From Kumtagia ephedrae (GTDB taxonomy: Bacteria > Pseudomonadota > Alphaproteobacteria > Rhizobiales > Rhizobiaceae): a stretch of DNA of 58,856 bases. The DNA lies in the NCBI RefSeq assembly GCF_003012745.1, contig NZ_PXYK01000034.1, positions 1 to 58,856 on the forward strand, read 5' to 3'. Below are positions 13,028 through 49,841 of this stretch, in pieces. Position 1 is the first letter of the stretch. The number at the start of each line of letters is the position of its first letter. Made by a program: the position numbers and the translations under genes. The notes below the pieces were generated by a model, which had not been told where the DNA came from, searched no databases, and saw only the letters and a program-made list of their open reading frames with translations.

Positions 13028-13469
13028 GAGGCGCGGGAGCAAAGAGCAGACAGGAGGGGCAGATCGCCCGACGATGGCGGGCAGGGCGCCTGATCCGGCA
13101 GCGCAAAAAACCGGTGTCAGCAAGAGCGCCGGCACCGGCTTCAAATTCTGGTGAAATCACTCGGCCATTCGTGGCCGAGGTTGGTTCGATCCGACGCGGG
13201 CCCGTGGGCGGGGGGCTTGGGGTTACGAGCCGGTGCCGGACCGAACCGTCTCAGGCAACGGGGCTACAGTCGGCGGACATTGGGGCGTCAGCTTGTGCAA
13301 AAAATGGCGGGAATGTGGCGATTCTTCACCAATCATGTCTTTGTGAAACAATTTGTGATTAGAATTGATTTTGCGTGAGAGAGGTTTCGTTGAGGGATTC
13401 GGCGCCTTGCAATTTACCGGCGAACGCGCCACGCTTGGTCGCATAATTGTCACGAAAAGGCAGGTGCGG
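13028..13469. other. 442-bp intergenic region between the DUF1223 and DUF2794 genes
   Basis: Besides the structured segment at 13105-13260, the right half (about 13300-13400) is AT-rich compared with its surroundings. It contains two TTTGTGA repeats (near 13340 and 13353) and probably carries the promoter of the DUF2794 gene. No coding sequence is supported. Confidence 0.5.
13105..13260. ncRNA. Structured intergenic region, possible small RNA
   Basis: Several base-paired elements are packed into 155 bp. A perfect CTCGGCCA-TTCG-TGGCCGAG hairpin with a UUCG tetraloop lies at 13160-13179. CCGGTG and CACCGG flank a 12-base loop (13111-13138) and are followed, on the minus strand, by six U, so they read as a terminator in that direction. 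A long-range match pairs GCCGGCACCGGCT (from 13129) with AGCCGGTGCCGG (from 13229). No ORF explains it. Strand and function are inferred only; a repeat relic is the alternative. Confidence 0.35.
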
Positions 13470-13853
13470 ATGAGCGATCGCAGCGGAATGGAGGGTGGGG
13501 ACGAATCCGCAATACTGATCCCGCTGCACGAGGCCAGGCGCGAACGGCTCGACATCCCCGTCGCTTTCGACCGCCGCGAGCTCGACCAGATTCTGAGGCT
13601 CTACGGCCGCATGGTCGCCGCCAACGAGTGGCGCGACTACGCCATCGACCATCTGCGCGAGCGGGCCGTCTTCTCGGTCTACCGCCGCGCCCACGACCTG
13701 CCGCTGTTCCAGATCGTCAAGGACCCGCGCCTTGCCCGCAAGCAGGGCATGTTCTCCGTCGTGGCGGCGAACGGCGCGGTGCTGAAGCGCGGTCACGAGC
13801 TCGGCCGCGTGCTGGGCGTGTTCGACAGCAAGCTCAGGCTGGTCGGGGCGTAG
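13470..13853 (+). CDS. DUF2794 domain-containing protein
   Basis: A 127-residue protein of DUF2794, a family confined mainly to alphaproteobacteria and without known function. Typical blocks are AFDRRELDQILRLYGRMVA, EWRDYAIDHLRERAVFSVYR and the C-terminal PRLARKQGMFSVVAANGAVL then KRGHELGRVL. It has no signal peptide or membrane helix, so it is cytoplasmic. The ATG at 13470 is preferred because AAAGG lies 9 bases upstream and family members start at this point. A repeat array begins 3 bp after the stop codon. Confidence 0.85.
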   Translation: MSDRSGMEGGDESAILIPLHEARRERLDIPVAFDRRELDQILRLYGRMVAANEWRDYAIDHLRERAVFSVYRRAHDLPLFQIVKDPRLARKQGMFSVVAANGAVLKRGHELGRVLGVFDSKLRLVGA

Positions 13854-13856
13854 GCA

Positions 13857-14090
13857 GGGCAGTAGGGCAGTAGGGCAGTAGGGCAGTAGGGCAGTAGGGC
13901 AGTAGGGCAGTAGGCACATCTGCTCCCGGCCGTGATCGTGACATTCGCCCAAGAGAAGGCCGGCCGCTCGCAAAGCCATTGACCTCTTCGTGAGTTCGCG
14001 CTCCCCTTTCTACTGCCCTACTGCCCTACTGCCCTACTGCCCTACTGCCCTACTGCCCTACTGCCCTACTGCCCTACTGCCCTACTGCCC
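13857..14090. repeat. Array-flanked element, copy 1: seven GGGCAGTA units, core, ten TACTGCCC units
   Basis: Seven perfect head-to-tail GGGCAGTA octamers occupy 13857-13912. A core of 98 bp follows (GGCACATCTGCTCCCGGCCG onward). Ten perfect TACTGCCC octamers, the exact reverse complement of the first array, occupy 14011-14090. The two arrays could pair into a hairpin of at least 56 bp. The element begins 3 bp after the DUF2794 stop codon and its right end supplies the stop codon of the GNAT gene. A second copy with about 90% identical core is at 15735. Confidence 0.93.
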
Positions 14091-14655
14091 TACTCTCCCG
14101 AAACCGTCGCTCCGGCCAGGAGTCGGCGTCCGGTATCCGGCCCGCTCCGCCGTTCAGCGCAAGCTGCATGAACACCGTGTCGAGCCAGCGGCCGTGCTTG
14201 AAGCCCGAGCCTTCGAGTTTGCCGGAGTGGCGGAAGCCGAGCTTCTCGTGCAGCCGCACCGAGGGGCTGTCCGGCCTGCCGTCGCCGATCACGGCGATGA
14301 TCTGGCGGAAGCCGAGCGTCTCGCAGCGGCCGATCAGCTCCTTCAGCAGCAGAGCGCCGAGACCTTGCCCCTTGGCCTGCGGGGCGATGTAGATGGAATC
14401 CTCGACGACGAAGCGGTAGGCCGGGCGCGGCCGGAACGGTCCCGCATAGGCATAGCCGGCGAGACCGTCCGGCGTCTCGGCCGCCACATACGGATAGCCG
14501 CCGGCCTTAAGGGCGGCAAAGCGCGCGGCCATCTCGTCGCGCGTCGGCGGCTCCAGTTCGTAGGATGCCGTGCCGTTGGCGACGGCGTCGGCGTAGATGT
14601 CGGTGATGCGGTCGAGGTCGGCTTCGGCGGCGTCGCGCAGGACAATACTGCTCAT
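14074..14655 (-). CDS. GNAT family N-acetyltransferase (phosphinothricin acetyltransferase type)
   Basis: A 193-residue acetyl-CoA-dependent N-acetyltransferase resembling the Pat/MnaT subgroup. Those enzymes acetylate phosphinothricin, methionine sulfoximine and related small amines. The acetyl-CoA P-loop is AKGQGLGALLL (residues 94-104). The subgroup C-terminal block EKLGFRHSGKLEGSGFKHGR then WLDTVFMQL is intact. The substrate is not certain. The start is the ATG at 14655. The last six residues (SRAVGQ) and the TAG stop are read out of the octamer array at 14011-14090, so repeat insertion has replaced the native C-terminal end. Confidence 0.85.
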   Translation of the reverse strand: MSSIVLRDAAEADLDRITDIYADAVANGTASYELEPPTRDEMAARFAALKAGGYPYVAAETPDGLAGYAYAGPFRPRPAYRFVVEDSIYIAPQAKGQGLGALLLKELIGRCETLGFRQIIAVIGDGRPDSPSVRLHEKLGFRHSGKLEGSGFKHGRWLDTVFMQLALNGGAGRIPDADSWPERRFRESRAVGQ

Positions 14656-14708
14656 GATCTAGGCACTCTCCGGGGATGCCTACGGATAGAGCGGCTTTTT
14701 CCAAAAGA

Positions 14709-14734
14709 AAAGGGCGACCCGCGGGCCGCCCTTT
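14709..14734 (-). terminator. Intrinsic terminator of the BI-1 family gene
   Basis: On the minus strand AAAGGGCG and CGCCCTTT form an 8-bp stem with a GC-rich loop, followed by a TTTCTTTT run (complement of 14701-14710). It lies 24 bp after the stop of the gene at 14759. Confidence 0.85.
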
Positions 14735-14758
14735 GGTCCAGTCTCGTTCGGCTGGCGC

Positions 14759-15535
14759 TTATTCGCGGTTGCCGAGGAACGACAGCAGGAAGGAGAACAG
14801 GTTGATGAAGTCGAGGTAGAGCGTCAGCGCGCCCATGATGGCCTTGCGGCCGGCGACGAGAACCTCGTCACCCTCGAAATACATCTCCTTGATCTTCTGC
14901 GTGTCGTAGGCGGTCAGGCCGGCGAACACCAGCACGCCAATCGCCGAGATGGCGAACTGCAGGGCCGGCGAGGCCAGGAAGATGTTCACCACCATGGCGA
15001 TGACGAGGCCGATGACGCCCATGAACAGGAACGTGCCCCAGCCGGTCAGGTCGCGCTTGGTGGTATAGCCGAACAGCGACAGCGCGCCGAAGGCGGCGGC
15101 GGTGATGAAGAAGGTCTGGGTGATGCTCTGAGCCGTGTAGACCAGGAAGATCGACGACAGCGACAGGCCCATCAGCGCGGCGAAGATCCAGAACGAGGTC
15201 TGTGCGGCCGAGATGCTCAGCGTATGCACGCGGGCGCTCAGGAAGAACACCATGCCGAGCGGCGCGAGCATGACGACCCACTTCAGCGGCGAGCCGTACA
15301 GCGCGACGCCGAGCGAGGTCAGCATCTTGCCGTTGCCGAGCGTGGCGACCGCCGCGGACGGATCGTTGGTGGTGGCCAGCATCATGGTGCCGAGGGCGGC
15401 GATGCCGGTGATCGCGAGGCCCAGCGCCATAAGGTTGTACACCTTGAGCATGTAGGCGCGCAGGCCCTCGTCGATGGCGGCGTCTGCGCGGGCACCCGCA
15501 GCGACGCGCGCCTGATAGTTGCGAAGGTCAGCCAT
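14759..15535 (-). CDS. Bax inhibitor-1 / YccA family membrane protein
   Basis: A 258-residue protein with seven predicted membrane helices, matching the BI-1/YccA family of pH-sensitive calcium-leak and protease-modulating proteins. Family features include the N-terminal cytoplasmic stretch before YMLKVYNLMALGLAITG, the ISAIGVLVFAGLTAYDTQKI signature with its Asp-Thr-Gln-Lys, and the C-terminal LYLDFINLFSFLLSFLGNRE. The ATG at 15535 is chosen for its GAGGA six bases upstream and its match to family starts. It is monocistronic with its own terminator, and lies between the two octamer-array elements. Confidence 0.92.
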   Translation of the reverse strand: MADLRNYQARVAAGARADAAIDEGLRAYMLKVYNLMALGLAITGIAALGTMMLATTNDPSAAVATLGNGKMLTSLGVALYGSPLKWVVMLAPLGMVFFLSARVHTLSISAAQTSFWIFAALMGLSLSSIFLVYTAQSITQTFFITAAAFGALSLFGYTTKRDLTGWGTFLFMGVIGLVIAMVVNIFLASPALQFAISAIGVLVFAGLTAYDTQKIKEMYFEGDEVLVAGRKAIMGALTLYLDFINLFSFLLSFLGNRE

Positions 15536-15734
15536 AGATTTCCTCTGTTGCTTCTGCCCCGTCGGGTGTCGGGCGCTCGCGCCCAGGCGCCGCTGGCGGG
15601 ACTCCAGCATGCCTGTGGCGGAATATGATGCGTCTCGCGCGCGAGGACAAGACCTGTTGCGGGCGGAAACGCTACGTGAGGTTACGATTTTCTACGATCT
15701 CATACGAAATTGATGGGCCTCGCTGCGCGAGGCA
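15536..15734. other. Leader of the BI-1 gene, no other gene
   Basis: About 200 bp upstream of the BI-1 start. It contains a small CCTCGC-TGC-GCGAGG hairpin (15718-15732) beside the second octamer array and an AT-richer patch (TTACGATTTTCTACGATCTC) that could hold the promoter. No ORF is supported. Confidence 0.4.
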
Positions 15735-15945
15735 GGCAGTAGGGCAGTAGGGCAGTAGGGCAGTAGGGCAGTAGGGCAGTAGGGCAGTAGGGCACATCTG
15801 CTCCCCGGCCGTGATCGTGACATTCGCCCAAGAGAAAGCCGGCCGCTCGCAAAAGCCATTGACCCCCTCGTGAGCTCGCGGTTCCCTCCTACTGCCCTAC
15901 TGCCCTACTGCCCTACTGCCCTACTGCCCTACTGCCCTACTGCCC
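15735..15945. repeat. Array-flanked element, copy 2: six and a half GGGCAGTA units, core, seven TACTGCCC units
   Basis: One partial and six perfect GGGCAGTA octamers (15735-15789) are followed by a 100-bp core nearly identical to that of copy 1. Seven TACTGCCC octamers follow at 15890-15945. The core keeps the same orientation as copy 1. Array lengths differ between the copies (7+10 against 6.5+7), as expected for slippage. The element ends 5 bp before the ABC permease stop codon. Confidence 0.93.
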
Positions 15946-15950
15946 GTTGC

Positions 15951-18500
15951 CTACAGTTCCCGCAATACCGGCGCCGCCTTGTGCCCGAGCACCCGCCAGG
16001 TGCCGATCAGGCCGATGCCGACGGTGAGCACCAGCGCGATCGCCACGGTCGACACGGCCACCGCCGGCGAGAAGCTGGACGGCAGGGTCATCACCCTGGT
16101 CACCACGAACCACGCCGCCACGCCGCCGGCGGCCAGCGCGAACACGGCGGTGGCCAGGCCGATCAGCATGTATTCGAGCGAGAAGGCGGCGATCAGCGTG
16201 CGCCGCGTCGCGCCGAGCGTCTTCAGCACCACGGCGTCGTGGATGCGGGCGCGGTTGCCGGCGGCGAGCGCGCCGGCCAGCACCAGCACGGAGGCGAGCA
16301 GGGCGACGCTTGCCGCGGCGCGGATCGCCGTGCCGAGCTGCGCCACCAGCCGGTTGACGATGTCGAGCGCGTCCTTGACCCGGACCGTGGTGACGGCCGG
16401 ATAGGCGCGGGTGACCTGGTTCAGCACCTGCGCCTCCTCGGCCAGCGTGGCGTCGGGCGCCATCAGGGTAGCGAGCCAGGCATGCGGCGCGCCGGCGAAG
16501 GTGTTGGGCGAGAACACCATGACGAAGTTGATGCCCATGGATTCCCACTGCACGTCGCGCAGGCTGGCGATCCTTGCGGTGATGTTGCGGCCGAGCACGT
16601 TGACCGTCACCGTGTCGCCGATCTTCAAGCCGAGCTGGCCGGCCTCTTCCGAGGAGAACGAGACCAGCGGCTCGCCGGCATAGTCCCGCGGCCACCAGGC
16701 GCCGGCGCTGAGCGTCGCGTTCTCCGGAATATTCGCCGCATAGGTGATGCCGCGGTCGCCGCGCAGCACCCAGGCGCCCTCCGGCGGCACCGTGATCTTC
16801 TGCACGTCGACGCCGTTCAGCGCCATGACGCGGCCGCGCAGCATCGGCACGCGCACCAGCTTGCCGTCCGGCGCCAGACCGGTGACCAGACTGGAGAAGG
16901 CGTCGACGTCGGCCGCCTGGATGTCGACGAAGAAGAAGTTCGGCGCCTGCTCCGGCAGGCTGCCGGAGATCTGGCGCCGCAGGTCGCCGTCGATCAGCGC
17001 CAGCGTCACCAGCAGGGTCAGGCCGAGGCCGAGCGACAGCACGACAGAGGGCGTCAGCGCGCCGGGGCGGTGGATGTTGCCGACGGCGAGCCGCAGCGCG
17101 GTGGAGCGCAGCCGCGGCGCCCGGCGCGCCAGCCATTGCACGCCGAGGCCGACGCCGCGCAGCACGATGAAGGCCGCCACGGCGGCGCCGACGAAGATCG
17201 TGGCGATGCGACGGTCGGTGGCGAACCAGATGGACAGCGCCGCCAGCAGGACGGCGATGCCGATCGCCAGCGCCACATAGGGCCAGCGCGGAAGACCGCG
17301 GCCGCCGATCCCCATCTCGCGGAACAGGGCCGTCGCCGGCACGGCGCGGGCGCGCCCCAGCGGCAGGACGGCGAAGGCAAGCGTCACCAGCACGCCGAAG
17401 CCGGCGGCCAGCGCCAGCGCGCCGGGATAGACGCCGCCTTCGGCCGGCACCGGGATGAAGGAGGAAAGGGCGGCGCTCGCGGCGAACGGCATGAGCGCTG
17501 CCAGCGCCAGGCCGATGACGATGCCGAAGCCGGCGATGATCAGGATCTGCGCGAGATAGAGCGCGAAGACGAAGCCGCCGGAGGCGCCGAGGCTCTTGAA
17601 GGTGGCGATGACGCCGCGCTTGCCGTCGAGATAGGCGCCGACCGCGTTGGCCACACCGACGCCGCCGACCACCAGCGCCGTCAGCCCGACCAAAGTGAGG
17701 AACTGCGAAAAGCGCTCGATGTTGGAGGAGAGCGCCGGGGCCGCGCTGGTGCGCGTGCGGATGCTCCAGCCGGCTTCCGGAAATTTTTCGGCGGCCTCGG
17801 CGCGGATCGCGGCAAGGCCGGCCTCGCCGCTGCCGGCGGGCAGGCGGACCTTGTACTGGTGCTCGACCAGGCTGCCCGGCTGCACCAGACCGGAGGCGCG
17901 CAGGCCCTCCAACGAGACCAGAAGCCGGGGGGCGAAGCCAAAACCGTCGGAGATGGCGTCGGGCTCGGAGGCGAGCACGGCGCGCAGCTCGAAGGTGGCG
18001 CCGCCGAGCCTGATGCGGCTGCCCGGCTCGAGGCCGAGCCGCTCGAACAGGAGATCGGCCGCCGCCGCGCCATAGACCCCGTCCTCTTCGGCGAACAGAT
18101 CCGGCGCGGGCAGGGCGGGCCGGGTGACGAGCGTGCCGTAGAGCGGATAGGCGGCGTCGACCGCCTTGGCCTCGACCAGAGCCTGGTCGGAGCCGTCCTC
18201 CAGGCGCGCCATCGAGCGCATGCCGGCGCTGACGGCCAGCGTGCCGAGCCTGTCGAGGAAGGCGCGCTCGTCTGGCGTCGCCTCGCGCTGGTTGAGGGCG
18301 AAGCGGATGTCGCCGCCGAGCAGCGCCTGGCCCTCGGTGGCTACGCCGGACGAGATCGCCTGCGCCACCGAATTGACGCCGCCGATCGCGCCTACGCCGA
18401 GCGCGATGCAGGTGAGGAAGATGAGGAAGCCGGAAAGGCCGCCGCGCATCTCGCGCAGCGCGAAGCGGAGGGCGAGTTTGAGGGAGCGGGATGTTCGCAT
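15951..18500 (-). CDS. ABC transporter permease, FtsX-like (YbbP family)
   Basis: An 849-residue membrane subunit of the LolC/MacB/FtsX superfamily, YbbP-like. It has one N-terminal helix near 26-45, a long periplasmic region, a first FtsX-type helix bundle (about 260-430) and a second at the C-terminus (about 710-840). Such permeases use ATP hydrolysis to drive envelope work, such as extraction of lipids or proteins or mechanotransmission, rather than to move small solutes. The ATG at 18500 begins MRTSRSLKLALRFALREMRG, the usual family start. Its ATPase partner is upstream at 18733, separated by 232 bp with a family B repeat. The substrate is unknown. Confidence 0.88.
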   Translation of the reverse strand: MRTSRSLKLALRFALREMRGGLSGFLIFLTCIALGVGAIGGVNSVAQAISSGVATEGQALLGGDIRFALNQREATPDERAFLDRLGTLAVSAGMRSMARLEDGSDQALVEAKAVDAAYPLYGTLVTRPALPAPDLFAEEDGVYGAAAADLLFERLGLEPGSRIRLGGATFELRAVLASEPDAISDGFGFAPRLLVSLEGLRASGLVQPGSLVEHQYKVRLPAGSGEAGLAAIRAEAAEKFPEAGWSIRTRTSAAPALSSNIERFSQFLTLVGLTALVVGGVGVANAVGAYLDGKRGVIATFKSLGASGGFVFALYLAQILIIAGFGIVIGLALAALMPFAASAALSSFIPVPAEGGVYPGALALAAGFGVLVTLAFAVLPLGRARAVPATALFREMGIGGRGLPRWPYVALAIGIAVLLAALSIWFATDRRIATIFVGAAVAAFIVLRGVGLGVQWLARRAPRLRSTALRLAVGNIHRPGALTPSVVLSLGLGLTLLVTLALIDGDLRRQISGSLPEQAPNFFFVDIQAADVDAFSSLVTGLAPDGKLVRVPMLRGRVMALNGVDVQKITVPPEGAWVLRGDRGITYAANIPENATLSAGAWWPRDYAGEPLVSFSSEEAGQLGLKIGDTVTVNVLGRNITARIASLRDVQWESMGINFVMVFSPNTFAGAPHAWLATLMAPDATLAEEAQVLNQVTRAYPAVTTVRVKDALDIVNRLVAQLGTAIRAAASVALLASVLVLAGALAAGNRARIHDAVVLKTLGATRRTLIAAFSLEYMLIGLATAVFALAAGGVAAWFVVTRVMTLPSSFSPAVAVSTVAIALVLTVGIGLIGTWRVLGHKAAPVLREL

Positions 18501-18533
18501 CAACGTCCAGACCCCGCCGAGGGTGGTGCTCCT

Positions 18534-18696
18534 GCGCACCCCCCTCTGTCCTGCCGGACATCTCCCCCGCAAGGGGGGAGATTGGCAGCTTCGGCCCTGC
18601 CGCCTCTCCCGGAGGATTGGTGATTGGCGAAAGCCGACGCGACCGCCGATCTCCCCCCTTGCGGGGGAGATGTCCGGCAGGACAGAGGGGGGTGCG
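18534..18696. repeat. Family B palindromic repeat
   Basis: The arms GCGCACCCCCCTCTGTCCTG and the inverse ending GGACAGAGGGGGGTGCG surround a core with TTGGTGATTGGCGAAAGCC. It separates the two genes of an ABC transporter. Confidence 0.88.
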
Positions 18697-49709: not shown

Positions 49710-49841
49710 ACGCTTTGCCGCACATCGCCGGTGCGACGAATGTTGAACATCGTCTGCCGCTGTAGTAGTCGCCGGCCTGCATAGGACGACCTATGCCGGT
49801 GCGCTTCGTCGGGGACGGCCCCATACCCAAGGGGGCCGACG

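Follow-up and report, generated by a model that had tools for sequence, protein, structure and literature searches.

Introduction

For a studied intervening sequence (IVS) of rRNA, complementary borders, excision by RNase III and heptameric repeats, variable in number, beside the open reading frame (ORF) of the S23p protein have been reported, as well as a homopentameric ring for the S23p protein of Xanthomonas (PMC4990558). The same text recalls an earlier suggestion that mobility is the role of the ORF and argues that the protein is probably not made there and is decaying. Heptamer arrays of the type GGGNATC / GGGGA(C/T)T form quadruplexes in Xanthomonas and Nostoc, and 70 and 75 inverted heptamer pairs are given for two Xanthomonas genomes (PMC4692102). 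In Mesorhizobium ciceri, AGGGGAGT is described as a satellite family, and transposition was guessed for such satellites (PMC6749651). Here we report two structures in a 58,856-nucleotide stretch of Kumtagia ephedrae (contig NZ_PXYK01000034.1, hereafter the window), each formed by an octamer array, a short core and the same array inverted, which are likely to be gene-less members of a mobile family whose full form carries the gene of a 23S rRNA-intervening-sequence protein (IVP, S23p).

Results

The window elements and an IVP gene between the same arrays

The two elements span positions 13857-14090 and 15735-15945, and are built as follows according to the sequence and to Tandem Repeats Finder (TRF).

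13857-13912, plus strand: left array of element 1, 7 perfect GGGCAGTA units
13913-14010, plus strand: core of element 1, 98 bp, with the conserved 3' motif TTGAC...TCGCGCTCCC (13979-14005)
14011-14090, minus strand: right array of element 1, 10 perfect TACTGCCC units (GGGCAGTA on the minus strand)
15735-15789, plus strand: left array of element 2, a partial unit from 15735 and 6 perfect GGGCAGTA units from 15742
15790-15889, plus strand: core of element 2, 100 bp, with the 3' motif at 15859-15885
15890-15945, minus strand: right array of element 2, 7 perfect TACTGCCC units

This plan had been proposed in a first-pass annotation of the window and was borne out, together with the array lengths given there (7/10 and 6.5/7), the perfection of the octamers (100% match and 0% indel in TRF for all four arrays) and the resemblance of the two cores, which had been put at about 90% and is 92%, in parallel orientation. 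The long hairpin that, according to this annotation, a transcript could form is likewise recovered as a predicted fold, in which copy 1 reaches -163.3 kcal/mol (z -14.7), the mean of 200 shuffled sequences being -89.5; judged by this fold, the window copies share with an rRNA IVS complementary borders that are able to form a stem. Up to two mismatches being allowed, 28 matches of the 16-base dimer were counted, while 100 shuffles gave a mean of 0.01 and a maximum of 1. No IVP gene lies within either element, the content being restricted to the 98- and 100-bp cores, and both are therefore termed non-autonomous. An Rfam scan of the window returned no family at either element and no rRNA match, both elements being located between protein genes.

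The same octamer arrays stand at no fewer than 12 places, spread over 10 contigs, in the draft genome (G000, 6.1 Mb). At six of these, namely the two window copies and contigs C20, C32, C60 and C1, arrays of at least two perfect units stand on both sides; the second array is short on C4 and C9 and decayed on C7, and those of C30 and C54 are either cut or single. Contigs C30, C32, C54 and C60 begin or end within octamer arrays, and consequently some array lengths are uncertain and further copies are probably hidden in the draft. On contig C1 a complete gene for a four-helix-bundle protein is placed between GGGCAGTA arrays, starting about 7 nt past the left array and stopping about 2 nt short of the right one, with almost nothing else inside. 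The encoded protein belongs to PF05635 (3e-35) and TIGR02436 (6e-34), the IVP family, and has relatives of known structure in 2gsc (E 2.7e-21) and 2rld (0.0011). The full element consists of the arrays plus the IVP gene, its unit is common to the arrays of the window, and the same arrays enclose an IVP gene and gene-less cores within one genome.

The inserts between the arrays vary, comprising cores of 90-104 bp (as delimited here) or the gene on C1, and most cores have in common only short end motifs, 5' CTCCCGGC and 3' TTGAC...TCGCGnTCCC. The motif common to the cores is clear in both window copies, in C60, C20 and C4, and in C9, C29, C3b and C7 of the sister genome G001; it is poor or absent in C32 and C9 of G000 and in two G001 cores. 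The core is not a constant part of the element, since different cores or a gene are found within the same arrays. For the sequence of cores 1 and 2 the next-best place in the genome has an E-value of only 0.08, and in a wider motif search the matches with 0-1 mismatch (4 of 40) were confined to G000 and G001; the 32 matches in other genomes all carry 2 mismatches, and the reversed control gave 23 there. The core was also considered as a structured RNA and rejected, seven of eight folds (four cores, both strands) having z-scores from -1.3 to 1.5 and one orientation of C20 reaching -3.2. As for a promoter, TTGAC is suggestive, but no -10 box was seen at the usual distance in a look by eye.

IVP genes between inverted arrays in other genomes

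PF05635 is present in 27 of 121 relatives and, across the phylum, in 62 of 398 genomes. From a scan of the genome collection for IVP loci the best 80 of 505 were kept, and a first set of 114 distinct ORFs was assembled. Pairing between left and right flanks was assessed by a 7-mer-based test that tolerates decay, with a threshold of at least 20 nt, and six loci that had been fetched twice were excluded (L095, L125, L135, L136, L171 and L191). Such pairing was observed at 103 of the 114 IVP loci and in 116 of 1231 displaced control windows. A phylum-wide sample of 47 loci yielded 44 distinct ORFs, 4 of them already in the first set, and 25 of the 44 reached the threshold. The same plan is present on a complete chromosome (CP034448, locus L124), with arrays of 13.7 and 4.4 units. 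Among viral contigs 8 stretches matched a pattern, one of which encoded a relative, its flanks being identical to those of a Brevundimonas locus.

The units surrounding IVP genes include GGGCAGTA, AGGGGAGT, GGCAGTA, GGCAGTC, GCGAATA and GTGAATG, and in cyanobacteria TCGGGAG, GGGTGTA and GGGAACA. In a Picosynechococcus plasmid a four-helix-bundle gene (L212, 1489-1845) sits within a type III-B CRISPR module, between cas10/cmr2 and the cmr3-family gene. In a survey of 61 genomes the three with at least 26 matches to the GGGCAGTA trimer (117, 49 and 26) are the three in which a GGGCAGTA-flanked IVP gene was found; the trimer also has 7 matches in G036 and 1 in G033, and IVP was detected in neither. 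Matches to AGGGGAGT occur in 6 of 121 genomes, of which G001, G019 and G094 have an IVP of the AGGGGAGT type and the remaining ones hold few matches (G002 3, G003 1, G033 1).

Two of the fetched IVP genes, L276 and L216, lie inside 23S rRNA (RF02541), and the plan around them is the same: by reading, inverted period-7 arrays flank the gene on both sides at L276, and the left array is short at L216. A further locus from the genome of L276, L277, has an identical ORF and identical printed flanks. The family seems, accordingly, to include the long-known rRNA intervening sequences.

Array unit and IVP lineage at shared insertion junctions

Many IVP elements occupy the same gene junctions in different genomes, the gene names being assigned by eye from protein ends.

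nuoC|nuoD: 24 IVP loci, in many Rhizobiales (e.g. L070, L089, L105, L172), of different lineages with a different unit in each
glutamine-synthetase-like gene|oxidoreductase-like gene: 40 IVP loci
ahead of a gene like 3-hydroxyisobutyrate dehydrogenase: 19 IVP loci
ATP-grasp|alpha-E: 7 IVP loci

In 88 of 90 junction loci the end of the upstream gene is seen on the same strand as IVP, one of the two exceptions being a contig end, and in 83 of the 90 loci usable for this distance (out of 92) the array starts within 12 nt of the upstream stop codon. At nuoC|nuoD the two flanks of a locus pair with each other over 28.5 nt, compared with 11.2 nt when paired with loci of other species (0 of 5000 permutations). 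Unit similarity at this junction is correlated with IVP identity (r 0.56, and again 0.56 as a partial correlation controlling for NuoD; 0 of 5000), and not with NuoD identity (r 0.06, partial -0.03), the correlation between IVP and NuoD identities being only 0.16; L179 was excluded by hand from this comparison and from the substitution-rate and stop-codon-distance sets, which leaves 23 of the 24 nuo loci. At nuoC|nuoD the array unit therefore goes with the IVP lineage and not with the host, and, taken together with the pairing of own flanks, this suggests that whole elements have replaced one another at a single site. The permutation count for pairing at ATP-grasp|alpha-E was 26 of 5000, and across two sites the link between unit and IVP is weaker (r 0.30, 161 pairs).

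A tree of 112 IVP proteins, each free of stops and 85 aa or longer (123 columns; good support on 38 of 109 inner branches), requires 10 changes of site label, the minimum possible being 4. In the sister genome G003, the IVP copies at two different sites are mutually closest in the set, with 88% identity; both have a GGGCAGTA left array, and the right array of one has decayed to another unit. Median ratios of nonsynonymous to synonymous substitution rates (dN/dS) of 0.08, 0.07 and 0.25 in three site groups, calculated only from pairs with usable dS (127, 156, 43 and 2), point to purifying selection on IVP.

Unlike units were also encountered within single loci. At L081 and L084 of G003 the two sides carry unlike units, GGGCAGTA versus AATAGGGG or AGTAGGGG types, as expected of recombination between unlike elements. 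Among 12 flanks containing both TAGGGCAG and TAGGGGAG, the former lies inside the latter in 10, outside in 1 and mixed in 1, a pattern that would result from the entry of one element into the array of another or from a younger age of the inner end.

State of the two window sites in sister genomes

The genes adjoining the two window elements are listed below.

13365-13853, plus strand: DUF2794 gene, its stop codon ending 3 nt ahead of element 1
14074-14655, minus strand: GNAT acetyltransferase gene, its final codons and stop within the right array of element 1 (14074-14090), as an open frame
14759-15610, minus strand: BI-1 (Bax1-I) gene, between both elements, native and collinear in G002 and G003
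15951-18572, minus strand: FtsX-like permease gene, with 5 nt between its stop codon and element 2

In sister species these sites are found occupied, differently occupied and empty. G002 has the order DUF2794, GNAT, BI-1 and FtsX permease with sites 1 and 2 both empty, and in G003, whose site 1 genes are on different contigs, the comparison concerns site 2, which is empty, with the genes for GNAT, BI-1 and the permease collinear around it. The empty sites carry no array at all. At site 1 of G001, by contrast, an IVP gene stands between AGTAGGGG/CCCTACTC arrays, so that the place empty in one sister holds an IVP element in another, and at site 2 of G001 a core that differs by eye is enclosed by AGGGGAGT-type arrays. 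The enclosed genes, being collinear without the elements, are thus native, and each element arrived separately at a place that other elements also use. The first-pass annotation had seen the GNAT and BI-1 genes as enclosed like a composite unit; their position is as it described, but a composite transposon around them is ruled out by the collinear empty sites of G002 and, for site 2, of G003.

At a distance of about 120 bp from element 2, a ybhL leader (Rfam RF00520; 15552-15615, minus strand) precedes the BI-1/YbhL-type gene. Elsewhere in the window, a guanidine-II riboswitch (RF01068, 34.5 bits) was recognised at 49778-49822 on the plus strand, and positions 2170-2745 hold a 270-bp tandem repeat of 2.1 copies, 95% matching and rich in CCCCTC/GAGGGG inverted motifs.

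Discussion

On the basis of the unit common to the window arrays and the IVP-gene element, and of the state of the same sites in sister species, we regard the window structures as probable non-autonomous members of an IVP/IVS-type mobile family with ends made of inverted 7-8-mer arrays. The arrays would be the cis-acting ends of the element, and the IVP encoded on contig C1, associated with the same unit, may recognise them and move or maintain the cores in trans; in general, an IVP would bind its own unit and promote insertion or maintenance. Insertion just behind stop codons is expected to be nearly harmless, all the more if the two arrays pair in the transcript and RNase III trims the insert as it does in rRNA intervening sequences. 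The perfection of the units could be kept by slippage together with hairpin-templated correction, a process known from work on quasi-palindromes. The most uncertain point of this proposal is the way in which DNA would be moved by a protein that has no known catalytic site.

Several observations weigh against it. The IVP family is not known to have a catalytic function, no movement has been observed, and the evidence of the window for an action in trans is mostly correlation. No target-site duplication is visible at the empty sister sites, owing to an identity of only about 80-86% between the genomes here. The core and the IVP gene have no sequence in common, and consequently the core is not a simple deletion derivative of the full element. 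Arrays of the two octamer types are present in G002, G033 and G036, yet IVP was not detected in these genomes. In a strict exact-period test only 42 of 113 loci, among which some were fetched twice, have reverse-complementary arrays to the left and to the right of the gene. Once the overlap with the first set is excluded, just 22 of 40 genes of the phylum-wide sample pass the pairing threshold, and several lack arrays altogether. Two sites whose units are nearly uniform give the pairing test little power (92 and 289 of 5000), and the pairs behind the dN/dS medians are not independent and have a high dS (1.16, 0.76 and 1.65). Furthermore, no function is known for S23p/IVP according to PMC4990558.

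A serious rival, although in our judgement an unlikely one, is that slippage-prone arrays provide homology for host recombination or conversion, inserts being swapped as cassettes and IVP having no role in movement. The different inserts and units found at the same site in G000 and G001, the nesting of TAGGGCAG within TAGGGGAG and the unlike units paired in G003 all agree with such an exchange. Nevertheless, the window sites exist empty, without any array, and something must therefore bring the arrays in; moreover, pure exchange inside the arrays would uncouple the unit from the IVP lineage, which it follows at nuoC|nuoD. Considerably less probable is the view that these are simple-sequence arrays grown by slippage, with a function of their own in quadruplex formation, transcription end or stop-codon supply, to which inverted pairing and IVP would be secondary. 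In its favour, the arrays sit where genes end and provide GNAT with its stop codon. Against it, the constant features are the complementarity of left and right and the enclosed insert, and cores and genes disperse along with the arrays. By their sequence, the window arrays have recurrent GGG tracts, one every 8 nt, which fits the quadruplex motif, but the tracts are not retained in other units of the family, and many units at the same position (GCGAATA, GTGAATG, GGCAGTC) have no GGG run; quadruplex formation is, as mentioned, on record for the heptamers of Xanthomonas and Nostoc, and the 70 and 75 inverted pairs for two Xanthomonas genomes (PMC4692102).

It is very improbable that these are REP/BIME-like (repetitive extragenic palindromic/bacterial interspersed mosaic element) or retro-type elements that a Y1 (RAYT) transposase or reverse transcriptase moves in trans. 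The elements are dispersed, intergenic and hairpin-forming, Y1 matches exist in G001 and reverse transcriptase matches in G001 and G002; however, neither PF01797 nor PF00078 has a match in G003 or in G000, which has the highest array count of the four genomes and is 99.7% complete, and this candidate was rejected for want of a match in G000. The GTAG within the unit recalls the 5' tetranucleotide of REP sequences. An assembly artefact can hardly be entertained: four draft contigs begin or end in arrays, but both window copies are internal to one contig and the plan recurs on the complete chromosome CP034448.

Beyond the likely membership of the window elements in an IVP/IVS-type family, it is possible, and we put it forward tentatively as a rather doubtful extension, that inverted arrays and one four-helix-bundle protein make up a complete and widespread mobile system of a new type. 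The protein would read a 7-8-mer unit that changes along with it, and would move itself and gene-less cassettes in trans without a known recombinase; rRNA intervening sequences and the orphan heptamer/octamer arrays of cyanobacteria, xanthomonads and rhizobia would be its products. The proposed IVP/IVS-type family offers a single explanation for three puzzles, namely the role of the common S23/IVP four-helix-bundle proteins, the origin of rRNA intervening sequences and the occurrence of unexplained intergenic 7-8-mer arrays as inverted pairs. It also offers a testable code between protein lineage and repeat unit, with natural experiments available wherever the same site holds different elements, and at the recurrent site between nuoC and nuoD, in the complex I operon, any effect on host mRNA can be tested directly.

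Comparison with known systems

Miniature inverted-repeat transposable elements and REP/BIME resemble the window elements in being small, dispersed, non-coding, hairpin-forming and presumably moved in trans. Here, in contrast, the ends are tandem arrays, and the full partner has a four-helix-bundle gene and no recognised transposase, nor does G000 have a Y1 enzyme as REP/BIME would require. Avd of diversity-generating retroelements is a four-helix-bundle, nucleic-acid-related protein that we take to be a relative of the IVP fold, but G000 has no reverse transcriptase match.

A close likeness is to the 23S rRNA IVS with an S23p/IVP ORF (PF05635, TIGR02436), which has inverted complementary borders, period-7 border repeats (as in L276 and L216), an IVP gene in its full form, and ORF-less forms. 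Unlike it, the window copies lie between protein genes and not inside rRNA, have no ORF, and are bordered by long perfect octamer arrays. The remark of the first-pass annotation that no known element class came to mind with exactly this plan is correct only in part: it is the plan of the ends of IVP-gene elements, whose members in rRNA are the known 23S IVSs.

The arrays of Xanthomonas and Nostoc share with those of the window the short G-rich units, the intergenic position, the many inverted pairs and the variable unit number, but they are heptamers, not octamers, and are described in PMC4692102 as quadruplex repeats generally without association to mobile elements; the terms "23S" and "helix bundle" are absent from that text, and no link to IVP is drawn in it. 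The AGGGGAGT satellite of M. ciceri has the same unit as is found around IVP genes in related loci, and in the available part of PMC6749651 it is reported as a satellite only, with no inverted pairing or gene. A literature search covering few subscription journals gave no report tying such arrays to IVP genes outside rRNA. The inverted heptamer pairs of Xanthomonas and Nostoc and the AGGGGAGT satellite were already in print.

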